From NCBI GenBank assembly GCA_036395115.1, contig DASWDU010000007.1:1-61202 (forward strand): 61,202 bases of DNA, in the 5' to 3' direction. Within the stretch, counting starts at the first letter, position 1; each line of letters begins with the position of its first letter. The notes beneath the pieces were generated by a model. That model was not told the DNA's origin, made no database searches, and worked only from the letters and a program-made list of their open reading frames with translations. The stretch comes from Thermoplasmata archaeon. GTDB lineage: Archaea > Thermoplasmatota > Thermoplasmata > RBG-16-68-12. Below are positions 46,081 through 55,731 of this stretch, one piece after another. The position numbers were made by a program, and so were the translations under genes.

Positions 46081-47103
46081 TCAGCCGAACCAGGAGTCGA
46101 GCGACCGCTGCTTCTGCTCCGACCGCGCGCTGCCGAATTTCTCGAGGGCGGCGTCGATCCGGTCGCGGGAGAAATCGTGTTCGTCGCACAGCATGCGCCG
46201 CACGCCTTCGGTATCGAGATCGCGGAACCCAATCTCGACGTCCTCGATGACCTTCGGGTGAAGGAAGATCTCGCGGACCTCCTCTTTCGATTCGATGTCG
46301 ACGCCGAGTTCCCCGAGAGCAGGCTCGAGAGAGCCGTGTTTCTTGATCAGGCCGAGCGCCTTCTTCGGGCCGATCCCTTTCACGCCGTCGTTGAAGTCCG
46401 TTCCGATGAGCAGCCCGACGTCCACCAGCTGCTCCCGTGCGATCCCGAGCGCGGCGAGGGTGGCCTCGAGGGAGATTTCCTCCGGCTGGACATCGACGTA
46501 AACGTCCTTGCGGGGAAGTTTCCGGCGGCCGGAGATCGCGAGGTTCTTCACGAGGCGCGGAGAGCCGAAGAGGAGGGAGTCAAAGTCCTGCGACGCCGCT
46601 GCGTAGGCGACCCGGGCGCGCGCCATCGCGCTCGCCTGGGCCTCCCCCTCCGCGGGCGCCTGCACCCACGGTAGGCCGAGGAACTCGAGGAGCTTCTTTG
46701 ACTGCTCGACCATCTCGTCCGTGAGCCGCGAGGTCTGCATCGCCTTCGTCCGCGCCGTTGCGAAGTCGCCGATCTCGACGGCTTCCCTCCACTCCCGTTC
46801 CGCGCGTTGCTTGACCTCCCCGCGGGCCACGAGCGTCCGTGCCTTCAGCCGCGGCGGCTCCCCGTCGAACACGAACACGGGCCGGATTCCCGCGGCGACG
46901 AAGTTCGAGAGGCGGTAGATGAGGCCGGACAGGTGGGACGTCACGCGGCCCTGCCGGTCCATGAGCGGCGTGCCGTCGGGCTGGCGGATGATCGCGAGGA
47001 ACTGGTAGAGCGTGTTGAACGCGTCGATCGCGAGGATCTTCCCGGAGAAGTCCTCGAGGGTCCGAGGCTCGGACGCGACGAGGTCCGCGAGATTCAGCCC
47101 CAT
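46081..47103 (-). CDS. fen: Flap endonuclease 1
   Basis: 340 residues, the normal archaeal FEN1 length. N and I nuclease regions: FSGKILAIDAFNTLYQFL (metal Asp), FVFDGEPPRLK, QAPAEGEAQASAMA, SQDFDSLLFG and LLIGTDFNDGVKGIGPKKAL (helix-hairpin-helix). The extreme C-terminus QKQRSLDSWFG is a PCNA-interacting PIP box. Removes 5' flaps in Okazaki fragment maturation and repair. A TnpB element has inserted just upstream, within ~45 bases of the start codon, close to its probable TATA-like box (GGCTTTACC, minus strand ~47125-47135). Confidence 0.96.
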   Translation of the reverse strand: MGLNLADLVASEPRTLEDFSGKILAIDAFNTLYQFLAIIRQPDGTPLMDRQGRVTSHLSGLIYRLSNFVAAGIRPVFVFDGEPPRLKARTLVARGEVKQRAEREWREAVEIGDFATARTKAMQTSRLTDEMVEQSKKLLEFLGLPWVQAPAEGEAQASAMARARVAYAAASQDFDSLLFGSPRLVKNLAISGRRKLPRKDVYVDVQPEEISLEATLAALGIAREQLVDVGLLIGTDFNDGVKGIGPKKALGLIKKHGSLEPALGELGVDIESKEEVREIFLHPKVIEDVEIGFRDLDTEGVRRMLCDEHDFSRDRIDAALEKFGSARSEQKQRSLDSWFG

Positions 47104-47145
47104 CTCCGGGGCGATGCGGGGCGCGGCGGTAAAGCCTTTGCCTCT

Positions 47146-47158
47146 ACGGTTCTGTGAC
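47146..47158 (+). repeat. Left terminal inverted repeat of TnpB element
   Basis: ACGGTTCTGTGAC, exact reverse complement of 48495-48507. Confidence 0.7.
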
Positions 47159-47219
47159 TCATCCGGGAGATCGTCACTTTCACCCCCCTCCCCCTTGGAG
47201 CTTCAAGCCACGAAAGGCC

Positions 47220-48476
47220 ATGACAACCTCGATGGCCGTCCCGCGCGTCGTCCGCAGCCTCTCCTTCCCCGCAGGGGATCTGCCGCCCTCCCTCCTTGGC
47301 CTGCTCGCTGAGTTCCGGCTCATCGTCAACAAGTCGATCCGGATCGCGCTCCGAGACGACATCCGGTCCCGGGTCCGCCTCGCGAGGACTGCGTACCGAC
47401 GATTGTCCGAGGAACATCGTGTGTACAAGCAGTACATCCCGAGTGCGTTCGAAGTTGCCTTGGCCGCCCTAAAAGTATATCGGCGTCGGGTGAGGAAGGG
47501 AAAGCGGACCGCGGCCCCGTTCATGCGCCGCCTACTCCTGAAGGCGGAGAACCAGTCTTACCGTCTTGATCGCACCACCGGCCAGCTACGGATCCCAATC
47601 CGCCGCGGAGAATGCGTCGAGGTCAGCCTACCCGTTTCGGAATGGCATCGATCGTTCCTGTCGGACCTCGCATGGGGACTAGGCTCCCTAACCGTGACAC
47701 CCGGAAAGATCGTCGTGGCCGTCCGGAAGGATGCGCCCGAGCCGTACGAACCGACAGCTGTCGTCGCCCTCGATACGAACGAGGATTCTTTGGACGGCGT
47801 CGAGGCGGACGGCGAAACGAATCGTCTTTTGAGCCTGCCGTTCGGCGGCGTTCGCCAGCTTCAGGCAACTCACTTCCGTCGACGGCGGCTCTTAGCGAAG
47901 AAGAAGGCCCACGACCGCCGCGTCAAACGGCGTCTGCTCGCCAGGGAGGGAAAGCGCGAGCGAAATCGCGTGAGTCAGCGGCTCCACCGGGTCAGCAAGG
48001 CCCTCATCGCAGCGGCCAAAGTCAAGAAGGCGGCGATCGTCCTCGAGGACCTCACCCTCCACGGCGCGGGCGGCCGCTCCCGTCGAATGAACCGCCGCCT
48101 GTCCTCCTGGCCTCGTTCCGAGATCCACCGTCAGATCGAGTACAAGGCCCCCCTCGCCGGCGTGCCGGTCATCAAGGTCAACCCTCATTGGACCAGCAAG
48201 ACCTGCCCAGTGTGTGGCGCCCGGCGCCGAGATAGGGTGGGCCAGGATTTCGTGTGCCTTGCGTGCGACTGGGAGATGGACCGGCAGATCAACGCAGGCA
48301 TGAACATCCTGAAGACCGCCGTGGCCTCGAACGAGGCCTTGGCAAGGGCCGTACGGTTCCGGCCCGGTGCCCTCCGCGATGATGTCGTGAGTCCCCTCTA
48401 CGACTTGTCCCGAGGAGGGACGGGCGCACGGGACGAGCCGAGCGGAGTCGAGTGCCTTGCGGATGTGGTCCGATAG
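47220..48476 (+). CDS. tnpB: TnpB-family RNA-guided nuclease-like protein
   Basis: 418 residues from ATG 47220; an earlier GTG at 47154 lies inside the inverted repeat. N-terminal wedge/REC-like half, then a RuvC-like nuclease: motif I VVALDTNEDSL with Asp, motif II AAIVLEDLTLHG with Glu, zinc finger CPVCG...CLACDW, and motif III MDRQINAGMNIL. In most TnpB and Cas12 proteins motif III is DRDxNAAxN, with the second Asp catalytic; here that position is Gln. Either the element uses a variant active site, as some archaeal homologues with DRQLNA seem to, or the nuclease is dead. No tnpA is adjacent. Confidence 0.88.
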   Translation: MTTSMAVPRVVRSLSFPAGDLPPSLLGLLAEFRLIVNKSIRIALRDDIRSRVRLARTAYRRLSEEHRVYKQYIPSAFEVALAALKVYRRRVRKGKRTAAPFMRRLLLKAENQSYRLDRTTGQLRIPIRRGECVEVSLPVSEWHRSFLSDLAWGLGSLTVTPGKIVVAVRKDAPEPYEPTAVVALDTNEDSLDGVEADGETNRLLSLPFGGVRQLQATHFRRRRLLAKKKAHDRRVKRRLLAREGKRERNRVSQRLHRVSKALIAAAKVKKAAIVLEDLTLHGAGGRSRRMNRRLSSWPRSEIHRQIEYKAPLAGVPVIKVNPHWTSKTCPVCGARRRDRVGQDFVCLACDWEMDRQINAGMNILKTAVASNEALARAVRFRPGALRDDVVSPLYDLSRGGTGARDEPSGVECLADVVR

Positions 48477-48494
48477 ACGCCACTACCCGCAAAC

Positions 48495-48507
48495 GTCACA
48501 GAACCGT
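48495..48507 (-). repeat. Right terminal inverted repeat of TnpB element
   Basis: GTCACAGAACCGT, exact reverse complement of 47146-47158. It begins 18 bases after the tnpB stop and ends two bases outside the stop codon of the giant gene. Confidence 0.7.
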
Positions 48508-48509
48508 CT

Positions 48510-51500
48510 CTACATCTCTGCGGCGCGCACGCCGAGGAGGAACGTCTCCTCGCCCAAGCCCGCCTCGATGACGTACGCGTCGTCCGCCGGCTCCTGCACG
48601 AACGTCACCTCGAGCGCGTTCGCCTCCCGGAGGACCATGTCTTTCCAAGGTTGCAACATGGCGCGCAGCCCCTGCGCCGCGACCAGCTCGATCTCGACGA
48701 CGCGGTCCTCCGCGATGTGCATGTCTTTGCGGGCTTCTTTGACGAGCGTCACGATTTCCTTCGCGTAGCCTTCCGCGATCAGCTCCTTCGTCATGCGCGT
48801 GTCGAGGTACACGACGCCGCCTTCGAACGGCTCCTCGACGACGTGATCGGGGACCGACTCGACGAACGACACCATCGACGGATCGATCCGGACCTTCTGT
48901 CCCTCGATCCCGACCGAGTATTCGCCTCGCTCGAGGCCCGCCTTGATCTTCCAGGCGTCCTGCGAGCGCAGCAGGATCTCGATCTTCCTCGCCCAGAGCT
49001 TGTAGGACGCGCTCACGGAGTCCATGTGCACCTGCACGTCGATTTTCATCCCGCGCCACGTGTCGTCCGGGAGGACGAGGTCGAGTTCCTTCGCGCCGCT
49101 CTGGCCGACGATGACCTTCCGGAACGCGCTCACGGCATCGTAGCCGGCCTGATCCGCCGTCTTGACAGCGATCCGGGCGACGGGCCAATACCGCTCGATT
49201 CCCGCGCGGCGCTTCGCCTGGAACGTGGCCTCGAGCGTGAGCCGCAGGAACTCGACGTAGGAGTTCACCTGTTCGTCCGAGATCTGGAGGGTGCCCGCCT
49301 CCTTCGAGGCGGTGATCGCCTGCCGGATCTGCTTCGCGATCTCCTCCGTCGGGCCCACGGTCGCGTTCGAGATCTGTTGCAGAACCGCCACCCCCTGCTC
49401 GTACCCTCTCGACTCGATCGCGGCCCTCGCCCAGCCCACGAAGTCCTGATTTCCTTCGCCGGCGAGTAGCCCGCGCTCCATCATCATCGGGATCTTGCTG
49501 ACGGCGGTGTCCTCGAGCGGCCCGAGGGAGACGCCGTCCACATCGGTCGCGAAGAGCGCCTTCCGCACGAGGTCGCGGATGCCGACAAGTTCGGCGGGGT
49601 CGCCGGTCCACGCCTCGAGGCGCGGTCCGTAGACGTCGTGGATCTCGCGCAGGATGTGCATGAGGTAGAGCAGGAGGATCGACGGCTCGCGTCCCTGGAT
49701 CGAGACGACGAGGATCGCCTGCGGCGCGCGCAGGGCGACGATCGGCACGCCGGCGATCGTCGTGCGCTTCACCGGCTTCGCGCCCGCCGGGAACGCCTTC
49801 GCGACGAACGCCTTGATCTGCTCCTCGAACGCCGCTGCCTTCGAGAGGTCTTCCACCGGGAGGTACGCGCGCGCCTCATGGCACACGATCGCCCCGGTCG
49901 AATGGAACAGGAGGGCGTCCTCGATGACGTAGCCGCCTTCCGGTTCGACGCGCACGATCGCGGTGTCCGTCGTCTGGTGCTTCCCCTCGTCGAGCGGGCG
50001 CGTGTAATGGACCTCGAAGTCGAGGTCCATCGTGCCCGCCTCCTTCGGCTTGAGTCCGAACTCGAGCGTCGTCTTTTCGTTCGGCTCGAGCTTCTCGATG
50101 ACCTTGAGTCCCTGCACGTCGACGGGCCCGGTGACGATCGGAGTGACGTGCTCGGCGGGCCAGTTCCCTTTGTTCGTGATCGCCATCTCGAACCGGCTCC
50201 AGCGGTTCGCCTGAAGGCCCGGGCCCTTCGTCTCGAGGAAGAGCCGCGGGTAGCGGTCTTTCAGGATTTGCTCGACGCGTGCCTTTGCGGTCTGTCCGGC
50301 GCGATCGATGAGCGGTTCGAGCCCCGTCAAGTCCTCGGTCCGCAGGGCGTCCTCGGCTTTCTGGAGCAGGGCCTCGACGTCGCTGACGTCCACGTGGACG
50401 GCTTTCGCGTGGGCGACGATCGCCTGGACCTTGGCGAGGTCGGCCCGGCCCTTCTCGAGCATGGTCCGCCGGCGTTGGCGCGCGAGCGACTCTTTCGCCC
50501 GCCGGAGGAAGTCCTCCATCTGGCGGGGATTTTTCTTCTGGATCGCCCCCTCGATCTTCGTGAGGTACGATTCCGCCTCGCGGACGTCGAGGTTCTGGCT
50601 CTTCGCGATCTGGATGTCGTTGATCAGGGACGCGAGCTCGACTTCGACTTTCTTCGACGCGACCTCCCCCTTCTGGCGCTCGAGGGACTCGTGGAGGCCC
50701 TGCTGGATCTCCCGCACCCGCTCGTATTTGCCCTCGGCGAACGCCTCCTCCGCCTCGCGGAGCAGGAGCTCCGCCTGGCTCGTGTCCGCGCCGATCCCTT
50801 TCATCTCCGCGACGGTGTCGCGCGCGGCCGCAAGGATGTCCGCCATGCGGTCCCGGAGTTGCGCCTGGATCGAGTCCGCCTGGGATTTCGCCTTCTCAAT
50901 GAACTGCCATGCGAGCTGGATGTCGCTCTCGAGCGTGGACTGCGCCTGGCGCAGGAGTTCGTTCGCCGCCATCGCCTGCTCCGCACCGAGCGCCTCGATG
51001 ACCCTCGCGGTCAGCGTCACGGGGCTGTCCGACAGCGCTCCCATGTCCGCCGAGGGATCTTTCGCGACCAACAGGAGCTTCTTGATGACCTCCTCGACGC
51101 CCTCGAGCTGGTGCAGGAGGCCGGTCCACTTCTCGAGGACATTCCCGTACCGGTCCTCGACCTCCTTGAGGATCTGGAGCATGTAGAGCGGAAGGAGCTT
51201 CGGCTCCTGGCCGATGAGGACCGTCGCGAGGAACGTGTGCGGCGACCGCTCGATCAGGATTTTCGAATCCCCGAAGTCGAGCCGCTTCATACCGACCCGC
51301 GTCCGCGCCTTGAACGAGTCCTTGACGAAATCCTGGACGACCGTCAGCATCCCGGAGAAGATGTCCTCGTCGATCTCCTCACGGAACTTCCGGCTGTGGT
51401 GCGCGATGAGCCGGCCGTCCGAGTGAATCAAGAAGACGTCCTCGACGAGGTACGTGGCTTCGGGCTCGACGCGGACCTCCTTCGTATCGCGGACCTCGTA

Positions 51501-54500
51501 GCGGTTCTCGTCGAACAGCCGCTGGTACGAGATGCCGACCGCGATGGGCACGGAGCCGGTGCCCTTCGGCTTCAGGCCCACCCGCACCGGCACGGACTCT
51601 CCCACCCCGATCTCGGGGATCGTCTGGACGCCCTTCGACTCGATGTCCCCGGAGAACTCGATGTGCACGTTCCGGGCCGGCAGCTTCCCGCGGTTCTCGA
51701 CCTCGAGCAGGTACTGGTTCCACTCGCCCGCCTGCAGGCCCGCGGTCGGGAGGCGGAGCGCCAGGTTCGGATAGCGGTTCTTGATGAAGTTCTGGATCTG
51801 GATGCCGATCGAGACCTCGGCCTGCTTGATCAGGATGTCCGCCATGGCCATGTCGCTCGCGCGGAGCGCGGCTTCCGCCTGGTCGAGCGAGCTCTCCGCG
51901 TCTCCGAGTTCCGCGCCGAGGCGCTTCGCGTTCGCGATCATCGTCGAGACAGCGTGGACCCGGGACTCGTACTTGTCGAGGAAGTGGCGGCCGCGCGATT
52001 CGTCGAGCGCCGCGCGCGCTTCCGAAAGGCCTGCCTGGAACCGCTCGATGTCCCCCTGGGCGATCGCGGTCCTCGCTTCCTCGAGGTGGGCCCGCGCGTC
52101 GCCTGCCGGGATCCCGAGTCGCTCCGACTGCGTCACGACCTCTTCGAGGGACTGGATCTCGCCCATCGACCGCTTCCTGAGGGAATGTCGTCTCGCGTCG
52201 AGGAGTCGTCCCTGGAGCTCCTCCCGAAGGCGACACACCGCTTCGAGGTCGTCCGCCTGCGCGGCGTCCGCGGCGTGTGTCCGGTACTCGTCCAGCTCTT
52301 CCGGGCGCAGGCCGAGGGAAGTGCCCTCCTCAACCAAGGGCGCGAACGAGTCCACGAGGGAGCCGAGGTGGGCCTTGCGCGCCATGTCGATCTCTTCGGC
52401 GACCCGCTTCGAGAAGGCGCCGACCTCGTCGAGTGTGCCGGCGTCGATATCCGCCTGCGCTTTCGACAGGAGCTCGGACGCCATGCGGACGTCGGCCCCG
52501 AGCCTCGCGGTGGCCTCCACCCTCGCGCGGAGTTCGGTAAGTCCCTCCCGGGCCGCGTCGGCCTCTTTCGCGCGGCGCGTCTCTTCGAGGATGTCCTCGA
52601 TGACCTTCTTGTATTCGATCGCCTCGACGAACCGGCCGTCGTTGATTGCCTCGCGCGCGTTCTGCAGGACGGAATCCGCTCGACCCGGATCCAAGCCGCC
52701 GGCGCGCACCTCCTCGATCTCGGTCTGCGCGAACCCCACGAGGTCTTTCGCTGCCGCCTCGAGGCCGACCGTGAGGCCGGCGGCCATGTCGCGCGTCTCC
52801 GCGAGGGCGGGCCCGATCTCCTGGTAGCGAGCCGCCTCGAACGCGGCCTCGGCCCGGGCGAGCGCCCGTTCCGACCCGAGGATCGAGATGTCCGCGCGGG
52901 CCAAGTCCAACATCGTCTTCCGGATCGCGGCGAGTTCGGCGCGGGCGGCTTCTTGGGCGTTCCGGAGCCCTTCCGCCTTCGCGTCCGTCTGCGCCCGGAG
53001 CGCCTCCGCCAATTTCTGTTCGGCGGCCCGCGCGTGTTCCACCGCATCCGCGTACTCGCCTCGCTCGAAGTGTCCTTCGGCCTTGTCGAGCAGGCCGACG
53101 GCCTCCGCGAGTTCGATCCCGGCTTCGCGGCCATCGTGGATCTTCCGTTCCGCGCGTCCGATCAGGTTCCGCGAGGCCGCGACGAGCTCGTCCATCAGCT
53201 CCTTCGCGGTGCGGTCGAGGCTCGCCAAGATCGCGTCGACGTCGTCGAAGTCCCGTTTCTCGAGCGCCCGCTCGGCGGCCCGCAGGCCCTCCTCGGCCCC
53301 GGCGATGTCGATGTCCGCCTTCCGGAGGTCCTCGATCAGCTTCTTGACCGTGATGAACTTCGTCGCGGCGCCGCGTGCCTTGTCGAGCACGCGCCGCTGC
53401 TCCTCCAGGTACCGCTCCCTCCGTCGCTCCGCGACCTTCCGTTCGAGTTCCCCGAGCGCATCGAGGACCGCCGCGTGCCGGCCTTCGTTCACGGCCGTCT
53501 CCATCGTCGCGAGGATCGGATCCAGATCGTCCGGAGGAACGCCCTCTTTCTTCGCCTCGTCAGCGAGACGCCAGGCGCGCTCGGACGCCTCCCGTGCCTG
53601 CCACTGCAAGGTGACTTTGACGCCCTCAACGATCCCTTCCGCGGAGGCGACGAGGTGCTCCGCCTCGTCCATCGCCCCGCCCTCGATCGCCCGTTCCGCC
53701 GCGTCGAGGACCTCCGTGGCCTTCTCGAGGTCGAGGTGGTTCGCGACGAGGTCCGCCATCTGCGCGCGGACCGCCTCCGTGCGGCGATGGATCGCCTCCG
53801 TGCGCTCCTGCTTCGCCCGGACCTCCTCCTTCACCGTCTTCTGTTTCGTGTCGTTCGCGGTCCGCGTGATTTCCTCGATCTCGGAGATGCAGGCCTTGCC
53901 GATGTAGAGCGTGTCGCCGTATCGCGCCTCCGCGTACGCGGTCCCCGCCTGCGAGAGCATCAGTTCTGCCCCCTCGATCGGGACTCCGTCCGACCGTGCG
54001 CCCACGACGACGCCGCGCGCCTCTCCGAGCACCTCCGCGGCGGCGCTGCGCAACAGCTCGCGCGTCGCGTGGATGTCGTGCTCGATGCCGTCGAGGAGAG
54101 CGTCCGCGTTGAGGAACCGGTGTTCCTCGACCGCGATCGCGACGTCCGCGAGCTTGCCTTCGAGGGCCACCGTGTCGGTCTGGCCCGCCTGGCGCAATCC
54201 GACGATGTCGTCGCGGGCGCGGAGCACGTGTTCGCTCAGGCGGGCCTCCGTCTGGGCGTCGGCGTCCGCCATCCGACTGTCGATGATCGCCTGCATGTCG
54301 ATTTGTCGTCCCAGCGAAATCGCGTCGTCGACCTCCCGGAGGAGCTGCCGCGCCACCGCGGGGTCGAGGCCCCGGGCCGCGTTCGCCAGGATGATCTGCA
54401 AGGACCGCTCCATGATCGAGCGGTGGTGCGCGTCGCGCGCCGATTCCGCGGTGCGACGCGCCCGGGCCACGAGACGTCGTGCGTTCGGCAGGTCGTGGTC

Positions 54501-55667
54501 TTCGAGCGCACGCGTCAGGTCGACCAAGGTCGTCTCGAACTCGCCTGCCTCCGCACCGAGCTTCCGCAGGTCTTCCGCGTCGAGCCGGAGGCTCGCGAAC
54601 GCGTCTTGGACGGACTTCAGGAGGGCGGCCTCACGCACCGCCTCGTGAGCGTCCCGCGCGAGGGCCCGCACCTTCGCATACTCTTTCGATGCGAGGGCCG
54701 TCGAGGCCTGTCCGAACATCGCTTCCGCGTGGCTCACGTCGGCGCCCTTCCGCCGTTCGCGCGACGACTCGCGTTCCGACTCTCGGAGGGACGATTCGGC
54801 CGCAGCGTACCGCCGCGCCTCCCGAAGGCTGTTCCGCGCCCGCTGGGCGAGGAGCGGGATGTCCGCGAACACGCCGCGCCGGAGCGCATCCCGCGCCTGG
54901 GTGAGGACCTTCCGGGCGTCGGTGATGTTGACGCCGTCCTTCCGGGCCGCATCGACGTCCGCCGCCGCGCGGTCCAGGATGTCCTCCGCCCGGGCGTACT
55001 TCCGCTGCTGCTCCGCCTTCTCGATCGCCTTCGCGGTGAGCGTCCGGATCTTGCCGTATTCCCGGCGCGCGAGCGCCTTCCGGCCGTCTGCGACGAGCGC
55101 CTCCGCGTCCTCGACGTGGCCCCCGCGCTCTTTCGCGTACCGGACCTGCGAGGCCGCCTTGTCGAGCAGGCCTTGGAGCGCCCTCTCGCGGCGTTGGTCC
55201 AGCGTCCGGGTCGAGACGCGCCGCAGGAGCTTCTCGGCGGTGACGAAGTCCCCGCGGGCACTGATCGCCCGAGCCTGTTCGATATTCCGTTGGAACGCGA
55301 GGGTTTCGATGCCCGCTTCCTTCGCTTCCTCTAGGATCGTATCCGACCGGGCGAGCACCTCGACGACCCGCGCCTTGCGTTTCGCGATTTCGAGCGTGCG
55401 TCGCGAGGCACGGGCCAGATCCAGGGCCTTGCCGAGGTCGCCCGCGGCTTCCGTCTGCTCCGCCCGCTCTGTCAGCCGTCGCGCGAACGAGGCGTCCACC
55501 GAGTCCGGGGTCGACGCGACGAGGTCCTTCCGCGCCGCATCGATCGCCTTTCGCACGACGTCGGGCGCGGCACGCGCCGTCGGCGCGCGGTCGAACGGCT
55601 GCCCGCAGACGTCGCACGTGGTGCGTCCATCCGAGACCTCCGATTCGCAGAGTGGGCAGTGGGCCAT
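48510..55667 (-). CDS. Giant helical-repeat protein with zinc ribbon, longin-like domains and IleRS-type C-terminus
   Basis: 2385 residues from ATG 55667 (TTG 55676 adds three). Order: zinc ribbon (CPLCE...CDVCGQPF), then about 20 helical repeats of 60-90 residues with a core GxDxxxAxxLLxxAExALxxG, then xFxxAxxLxxxA. Twice comes a beta sandwich (LRLPTAGLQAGEWNQYLLEV; LETKGPGLQANRWSRFEMAI) followed by a roadblock/longin-like domain (VFLIHSDGRLIAHHSRKF; ALLFHSTGAIVCHEARAY). The last ~250 residues (48513-49262) resemble the anticodon-binding end of archaeal IleRS (DUF5915): AKRRAGIERYWPVARIAV and LDTRMTKELIAEGYAKEIV. No membrane helix or ATPase motif is seen, so a cytosolic scaffold or filament is inferred. 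A TATA box TATAAAT lies near 55735-55741. Confidence 0.85.
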   Translation of the reverse strand: MAHCPLCESEVSDGRTTCDVCGQPFDRAPTARAAPDVVRKAIDAARKDLVASTPDSVDASFARRLTERAEQTEAAGDLGKALDLARASRRTLEIAKRKARVVEVLARSDTILEEAKEAGIETLAFQRNIEQARAISARGDFVTAEKLLRRVSTRTLDQRRERALQGLLDKAASQVRYAKERGGHVEDAEALVADGRKALARREYGKIRTLTAKAIEKAEQQRKYARAEDILDRAAADVDAARKDGVNITDARKVLTQARDALRRGVFADIPLLAQRARNSLREARRYAAAESSLRESERESSRERRKGADVSHAEAMFGQASTALASKEYAKVRALARDAHEAVREAALLKSVQDAFASLRLDAEDLRKLGAEAGEFETTLVDLTRALEDHDLPNARRLVARARRTAESARDAHHRSIMERSLQIILANAARGLDPAVARQLLREVDDAISLGRQIDMQAIIDSRMADADAQTEARLSEHVLRARDDIVGLRQAGQTDTVALEGKLADVAIAVEEHRFLNADALLDGIEHDIHATRELLRSAAAEVLGEARGVVVGARSDGVPIEGAELMLSQAGTAYAEARYGDTLYIGKACISEIEEITRTANDTKQKTVKEEVRAKQERTEAIHRRTEAVRAQMADLVANHLDLEKATEVLDAAERAIEGGAMDEAEHLVASAEGIVEGVKVTLQWQAREASERAWRLADEAKKEGVPPDDLDPILATMETAVNEGRHAAVLDALGELERKVAERRRERYLEEQRRVLDKARGAATKFITVKKLIEDLRKADIDIAGAEEGLRAAERALEKRDFDDVDAILASLDRTAKELMDELVAASRNLIGRAERKIHDGREAGIELAEAVGLLDKAEGHFERGEYADAVEHARAAEQKLAEALRAQTDAKAEGLRNAQEAARAELAAIRKTMLDLARADISILGSERALARAEAAFEAARYQEIGPALAETRDMAAGLTVGLEAAAKDLVGFAQTEIEEVRAGGLDPGRADSVLQNAREAINDGRFVEAIEYKKVIEDILEETRRAKEADAAREGLTELRARVEATARLGADVRMASELLSKAQADIDAGTLDEVGAFSKRVAEEIDMARKAHLGSLVDSFAPLVEEGTSLGLRPEELDEYRTHAADAAQADDLEAVCRLREELQGRLLDARRHSLRKRSMGEIQSLEEVVTQSERLGIPAGDARAHLEEARTAIAQGDIERFQAGLSEARAALDESRGRHFLDKYESRVHAVSTMIANAKRLGAELGDAESSLDQAEAALRASDMAMADILIKQAEVSIGIQIQNFIKNRYPNLALRLPTAGLQAGEWNQYLLEVENRGKLPARNVHIEFSGDIESKGVQTIPEIGVGESVPVRVGLKPKGTGSVPIAVGISYQRLFDENRYEVRDTKEVRVEPEATYLVEDVFLIHSDGRLIAHHSRKFREEIDEDIFSGMLTVVQDFVKDSFKARTRVGMKRLDFGDSKILIERSPHTFLATVLIGQEPKLLPLYMLQILKEVEDRYGNVLEKWTGLLHQLEGVEEVIKKLLLVAKDPSADMGALSDSPVTLTARVIEALGAEQAMAANELLRQAQSTLESDIQLAWQFIEKAKSQADSIQAQLRDRMADILAAARDTVAEMKGIGADTSQAELLLREAEEAFAEGKYERVREIQQGLHESLERQKGEVASKKVEVELASLINDIQIAKSQNLDVREAESYLTKIEGAIQKKNPRQMEDFLRRAKESLARQRRRTMLEKGRADLAKVQAIVAHAKAVHVDVSDVEALLQKAEDALRTEDLTGLEPLIDRAGQTAKARVEQILKDRYPRLFLETKGPGLQANRWSRFEMAITNKGNWPAEHVTPIVTGPVDVQGLKVIEKLEPNEKTTLEFGLKPKEAGTMDLDFEVHYTRPLDEGKHQTTDTAIVRVEPEGGYVIEDALLFHSTGAIVCHEARAYLPVEDLSKAAAFEEQIKAFVAKAFPAGAKPVKRTTIAGVPIVALRAPQAILVVSIQGREPSILLLYLMHILREIHDVYGPRLEAWTGDPAELVGIRDLVRKALFATDVDGVSLGPLEDTAVSKIPMMMERGLLAGEGNQDFVGWARAAIESRGYEQGVAVLQQISNATVGPTEEIAKQIRQAITASKEAGTLQISDEQVNSYVEFLRLTLEATFQAKRRAGIERYWPVARIAVKTADQAGYDAVSAFRKVIVGQSGAKELDLVLPDDTWRGMKIDVQVHMDSVSASYKLWARKIEILLRSQDAWKIKAGLERGEYSVGIEGQKVRIDPSMVSFVESVPDHVVEEPFEGGVVYLDTRMTKELIAEGYAKEIVTLVKEARKDMHIAEDRVVEIELVAAQGLRAMLQPWKDMVLREANALEVTFVQEPADDAYVIEAGLGEETFLLGVRAAEM

Positions 55668-55731
55668 GGCCTCCAACCGAGGGGATACCCTCCGCGACGG
55701 GAGGGCAGACGGCGTCGGATGCCCGCTTGGC

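Follow-up and report, generated by a model that had tools for sequence, protein, structure and literature searches.

The window analysed here is a stretch of 61,202 nucleotides from a Thermoplasmata archaeon (contig DASWDU010000007.1). It carries a 1358-bp element (47148-48505, + strand, in the orientation of its tnpB gene) which is best explained as a non-autonomous DDE-type transposon having tnpB as its sole gene, probably mobilised in trans by an IS6-like transposase and with a TnpB nuclease that would cut the empty allele; a probability of roughly 0.8 is given to this explanation as a whole. The known prokaryotic partners of TnpB, from which Cas12 descends, are the HUH (IS605) and serine (IS607) recombinases. 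In these uncultured archaea TnpB seems to have moved onto a vehicle of another type, like its eukaryotic relatives, the Fanzors, judging from comparisons of sequences, which make up all of the evidence and in which related copies are not fully independent of each other.

The original prediction described perfect 13-bp inverted repeats at both ends of a 1362-bp unit. The repeats were located as exact matches at 47146-47158 and 48495-48507, while the length was corrected to 1358 bp, because the homologous copies terminate at GG, leaving the outer AC/GT of the 13-mer as flank that matches by chance. The left terminal inverted repeat (TIR; 47148-47171, + strand) begins with 11 perfect base pairs, GGTTCTGTGAC, and the right one (48482-48505) reads GGTTCTGTGACGTTTGCGGG... 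on the - strand, both belonging to a family with a consensus of about 24 bp (GGTTCTGTnACAARTCGGGTGRTG). Between them, tnpB is the only gene, as had been stated, together with its guide-RNA scaffold; no DDE transposase is encoded, hence the element is a non-autonomous rider and not a full IS6-like member.

Comparison of the copies shows a multi-copy family with TIRs of about 24 bp, 9-bp target duplications, insertion sites found empty in related genomes, and an intact-looking TnpB with a covarying predicted scaffold. The 2.40-Mb genome contains only three instances of the core GGTTCTGTGAC: the two ends of this unit and, on contig C30, the right end of a second tnpB copy. Further copies of about 76% identity are located on contigs C30, C16 and C10, besides guide-RNA/right-end remnants, and those with readable ends finish with ...CAGAACC at the right and mostly start with GGTT... 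at the left; the C16 copy has TIRs matching at 22/24 and a perfect 9-bp duplication, CGGTGGCGG. Two 11-mer matches with at most one mismatch are not rare per 61-kb window, as would suit chance repeats around a lone tnpB, but this reading is refuted by the third occurrence of the core, the shared ends of the other copies and the empty sites, so that its probability is practically negligible.

The C16 element served as query against relatives and the TIR pattern as query across the class, where reversed-pattern controls gave zero. TIR ends were detected in several Thermoplasmatota families (f1, f5 and f8, and f23 with a variant). Moreover, an exact TIR-pattern scan across GTDB (84,980 species) returned 21 stretches, 19 of them in metagenome-assembled genomes of Thermoplasmatota/Euryarchaeota, and most of the 21 hold a TnpB (to about 46% amino acid identity) or derivatives of 350-460 bp with both ends. 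A distant copy, L034 in genome G069, presents a perfect 24-bp TIR, GGTTCTGTTGCGTTAACGGGTCTT, flanking an intact-looking tnpB. TIR-like matches in family f12 (G125 and G147) and at L060 were discarded as ordinary coding sequence, and one in a planctomycete (L089) as probably due to chance. A 4.8-kb contig labelled Bathyarchaeota (L082) has a TIR and a second end about 130 bp apart, which reflects either transfer or mis-binning. The TIR pattern was not found in viral contigs, nor the element's DNA in phage records, and plasmids yielded only distant TnpBs of less than 60% identity.

Regarding the target duplication, pairing the ends without a preset length repeatedly gave 9 bp. Among 24 curated elements, in which the window copy and that of genome G017 are a single insertion counted twice, the flanking 9-mers are at least 8/9 identical in 12, compared to 0.001 for random positions at the same loci; the duplication is perfect at L003, L019, L056, L063, L067, L069 and L102 and 8/9 at L024, L031, L040, L070 and L112. 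The duplication of CTCT or CTCTAC proposed from the window alone is thus rejected. In the window, GCCTCTAC (47140-47147) on the left and GTCTCTAC (48506-48513) on the right, the latter overlapping the stop codon of a large open reading frame (ORF), agree at 7/8 and read as an eroded 9-mer. The bases within the duplication are not conserved across elements, and this variability means that they hardly belong to a scaffold or to a target-adjacent motif.

The gene to the left of the element, encoding a FEN1-like nuclease, is present in 18/18 other searched genomes of the genus, and four same-genus genomes (G003, G010, G004 and G012) have an empty locus with a single copy of the target, no TIRs, and the neighbouring large ORF still in place. 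The empty site reads TAAAGCCCTT / GCCCTCTAC / ATCTGG in G010 and TAAAACCCT / GCCGTCTAC / ATCTGA in G003, with one base fewer in G004 and G012, and a fifth genome of the genus, G017, has the same insertion between GCCATCTAC and GCCGTCTAC (8/9). Copies ending exactly at the TIRs were found in the own and in related genomes, and neither copies with other ends nor the repeats at this locus without tnpB were seen. At the FEN1 locus of G018 (L128), about 50 bp of unrelated sequence lie between TTTGCCGTC and GACTACATCTCC, possibly the scar of a lost insertion.

These features distinguish the element from the usual prokaryotic carriers of tnpB. IS200/IS605 and IS607 elements and their TnpB-only (IS1341-type) derivatives have neither TIRs nor target duplications (PMC3119063, PMC6188088), as is also described for the IS605 type in archaea (PMC3119063), in agreement with what the original prediction had said of IS605 and IS607. 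Since the protein is a clear TnpB and archaea often carry orphan tnpB elements (PMC3119063), an ordinary IS200/IS605, IS607 or IS1341-type orphan with fortuitous repeats, dependent on a TnpA of the HUH or serine type acting in trans, might be considered. Its probability is very small, as the same TIRs surround TnpBs that are only about 46% identical, 9-bp duplications are foreign to IS200/IS605 and IS607, with their HUH or serine TnpA, and the Y1 TnpA (PF01797), tried and rejected as mobiliser, is absent from the own genome and from 14/17 TIR-bearing genomes in a search that did not include serine TnpA. The likeness to these groups lies instead in the same type of TnpB, the scaffold at the 3' end, the short non-coding derivatives that keep their ends and a right end that is expected to define the guide.

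The candidate partner is found in the same class. In G105, a genome that carries these elements, the C-terminus of an IS6-like (PF13610) transposase runs into GGTTCTGTCTAGCCATCGGGTGTT, and IS6-like transposons with such TIRs and exact 9-bp duplications are present at L147, L156, L157, L160, L171, L175, L176, L178 and L191. The TIRs of IS6-like and tnpB/short elements are identical at up to 21/24 positions (L156 compared with L054 or L069), the shuffled maximum being 16, and the window copy's own TIR matches the IS6-like ends at 16-17/24, against that shuffled maximum of 16. In addition, 16-mers such as TGTATAGTTATCGGGT are common to L156 and a short element of G061. Three of these transposases exceed the NCBIfam cut-off for IS6, and the others score below it with IS6 still as best family. 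Comparison of the elements shows an IS6-like (IS240-type DDE) family that shares with the tnpB elements its type of ends, the 9-bp duplication and the target, and because these three features agree, mobilisation of both the tnpB elements and the short derivatives in trans by the IS6-like transposase is the best reading. The search for a full-length transposon with the same TIRs therefore led to DDE elements of the same class, not of the own assembly; the proposal that TnpB was captured by, or is parasitic on, a DDE-type transposon is supported by ends, duplications and target, from which we infer the movement in trans.

A DDE mobiliser of another family, such as an IS5/IS903-like one, would also make 9-bp duplications, with the likeness of the ends being convergent, and it would fit the own genome's lack of a matching intact transposase and the IS5-type ends, such as GGCCTTGTTGCGAAACT, of G038. 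It is nevertheless an unlikely mobiliser: IS256 (PF00872) gave no match in 15 TIR-bearing genomes, and IS4/IS5 (PF01609) is absent from 12/15 of them, including the own genome, and has other TIRs where found, whereas the IS6-like elements have ends alike at up to 21/24, share 16-mers, duplicate 9 bp and insert beside the same kind of promoter.

The element and its probable partner resemble the archaeal IS6 (IS240-type) transposons and their miniature inverted-repeat transposable elements (MITEs) in the GG-ended TIRs of many of them, the PF13610 transposase and duplications of 8-9 bp; 9-bp duplications are listed for ISH15 and ISPfu5, both archaeal IS6 members (PMC6807381). Unlike those, the autonomous elements described here measure 1.6-2.9 kb, compared to about 700-850 bp, and their transposases 350-500 amino acids, compared to about 211-237, several of them having a SWIM-type zinc finger before the DDE domain. 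This finger is N-terminal in the transposases of L147, L156, L157 and L160 (with weak to moderate Pfam scores), where it is followed by a zinc ribbon, and it might serve to recognise the promoter target.

That target lies beside a core promoter. In the window, the FEN1-like gene has its TFIIB recognition element (BRE)/TATA promoter at 47130-47139 (AAAGGCTTTA on the - strand), which directly adjoins the left duplication and is also found in the empty sites; its first bases, read as CTTT on the + strand, are a candidate target-adjacent motif for TnpB. The gene itself, a FEN1/XPG-like nuclease (46081-47103, - strand; Pfam XPG_I 1.6e-23, XPG_N 1e-18), was left intact by the insertion, and its start codon lies 36 nt from the duplication, close to the distance of about 35 nt seen for many neighbouring genes, as expected for leaderless transcription. 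Nine IS6-like elements and two half-elements abut TATTTAAnCGTT[G/T], read towards the element, which corresponds to a BRE/TATA promoter pointing away. These elements represent a transposon family with a constant insertion point immediately upstream of archaeal core promoters.

The tnpB and short elements occupy the same kind of site in a preferred orientation. A T is found at position -2 of the duplication in 24/24 cases on the left compared to 7/24 on the right (for 24/24, p is about 7e-18 from base composition, with shared ancestry ignored), and at -3 in 18/24, followed further out by A/T-rich sequence, with nothing comparable on the mirrored right side; the guide-RNA elements have TT[T/G] directly 5' of the duplication. 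Moreover, a motif built solely from the target sites of the IS6-like elements scores higher on the left in 20 of the 24 guide-RNA elements (p 0.0015). The bases of the duplication itself are variable, which makes it improbable that such a motif lies within it.

Five IS6-like transposons of different species (L147, L156, L157, L160 and L176) are all inserted just upstream of the smc promoter, in both orientations and each with its own exact, different 9-bp duplication, which suggests a hot spot hit by repeated independent insertions. At L122 (G105) and L164 (G123), the transposase ends abut the same promoter, that of a ribbon-helix-helix-like gene beside ftsZ, and they possibly represent one shared insertion.

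The window TnpB (47220-48476, + strand) is an open frame of 418 amino acids with the RuvC-type D-E-D motifs LDTNE, VLEDL and MDRQINA and a zinc ribbon of the type CxxC...CxxC (CPVC...CLAC). It is recognised by Pfam TNB (1.8e-19), NCBIfam guided_TnpB NF040570 (115.1 bits, cut-off 100) and PF07282 (70.1 bits, cut-off 26.3), and it matches TnpB/Cas12f structures of the PDB, the alignment to a solved TnpB spanning the E and the zinc-ribbon/last-D region. A putative omega/reRNA scaffold (48336-48505, + strand) occupies the final ~170 nt of the element, extending from the 3' part of tnpB into the right TIR, where it stops, and can be aligned across 26 divergent copies. The fold predicted from this alignment has 24 pairs, with 98.2% of cells paired and 11 pairs with double changes; its covariation is 0.408 compared to 0.174 for shuffles, and the pairing is lost when the partners are slid by 1-3 columns. 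No Rfam family matched the guide RNA or the target regions.

On this basis, TnpB could keep its usual role and cut the empty site. As the scaffold stops with the right end of the element, the duplication (from 48506) would supply the first bases of the guide and the right flank the following ones, and TT[T/G] immediately 5' of the duplication would serve as target-adjacent motif of the empty site. The empty allele would then be cut and repair would copy the element back, while the filled allele would escape, since pairing with the guide would be limited to the 9 nt in front of the left TIR. A fuller version is put forward tentatively, with somewhat less than even confidence: the transposase would pick archaeal core promoters, TnpB would read the BRE edge CTT[T/G] as its motif, the guide would be the element's own duplication and flank, and the scaffold-bearing elements without tnpB would be homing-type MITEs served in trans by transposase and nuclease.

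Several points weigh against the explanation proposed here. TT[T/G] belongs to the transposase's own target, the BRE, and therefore is no independent sign of a target-adjacent motif; the contrast in orientation with the autonomous elements (6:5), based on small counts, is not significant (Fisher p 0.10), two of the 11 autonomous sites (L122 and L164) being possibly one. No IS6-like transposase with GGTTCTGT ends was found in the own genome, its sole clear IS6-like gene (L123) being without them, and no intact matching transposase was found in the other tnpB-bearing genomes, whose assemblies are fragmented and often broken at these repeats. Contigs C10, C40, C42 and C19 of the own genome also end near copies, and perhaps it is the breaking of the assembly by repeats that accounts for the missing autonomous copy.

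The same dependence of the motif on the transposase favours a rival of the nuclease step, compatible with the DDE vehicle, in which TnpB is mere cargo and both motif and orientation result from the transposase's choice of target and from selection on the neighbours. Decay or truncation affects many tnpB copies, as would be expected of cargo, but several have intact RuvC motifs, the scaffold is kept with compensatory changes in divergent copies and also in most of the 350-460 bp derivatives without tnpB, and the orientation is one-sided (20:4). Passive carriage is accordingly regarded as a doubtful account, with a sizeable minority chance of being right.

Among the known parallels is a eukaryotic one, as the original prediction had suggested. 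Fanzor1 and Fanzor2* elements are DNA transposons with TIRs and target-site duplications, and in some copies, as here, the nuclease gene stands alone between the TIRs (PMC3627910, PMC10711439); as in Fanzors, a TnpB-type nuclease would have been captured by a cut-and-paste transposon. The present element differs from Fanzors in its archaeal host, its IS6-like partner and the nine variable bases of its duplication. In Fanzors it is reportedly the RNA scaffold that has taken up the duplication (PMC10711439), whereas the present element would use it within the guide, a different solution. A review of the IS6 family mentions one passenger gene, for an unrelated hypothetical protein, and no tnpB (PMC7986276). 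No report of a prokaryotic TnpB on a DDE transposon was found in the open-access literature searched, which does not include the main survey of TnpB diversity (PNAS), so that an earlier mention is possible. The switch to TIR transposons has so far been described for eukaryotic Fanzors, and the case presented here is prokaryotic with a named DDE partner. Together with the empty sites and the guide-RNA record, it makes a long-standing question testable, namely whether RNA-guided cutting of empty sites helps any transposon regardless of its transposase, and how the guide relates to the target duplication.

Among the other features of the window, the large ORF to the right of the element (48510-55676, - strand), whose stop codon is the one overlapped by the right duplication, encodes an unusual giant protein of 2388 amino acids, in which long, charged repetitive stretches accompany CARDB-like domains and a DUF5915 domain at the C-terminus. 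An open frame of 1898 amino acids (49638-55334, + strand) runs antisense to it and is probably no gene but a consequence of high G+C.

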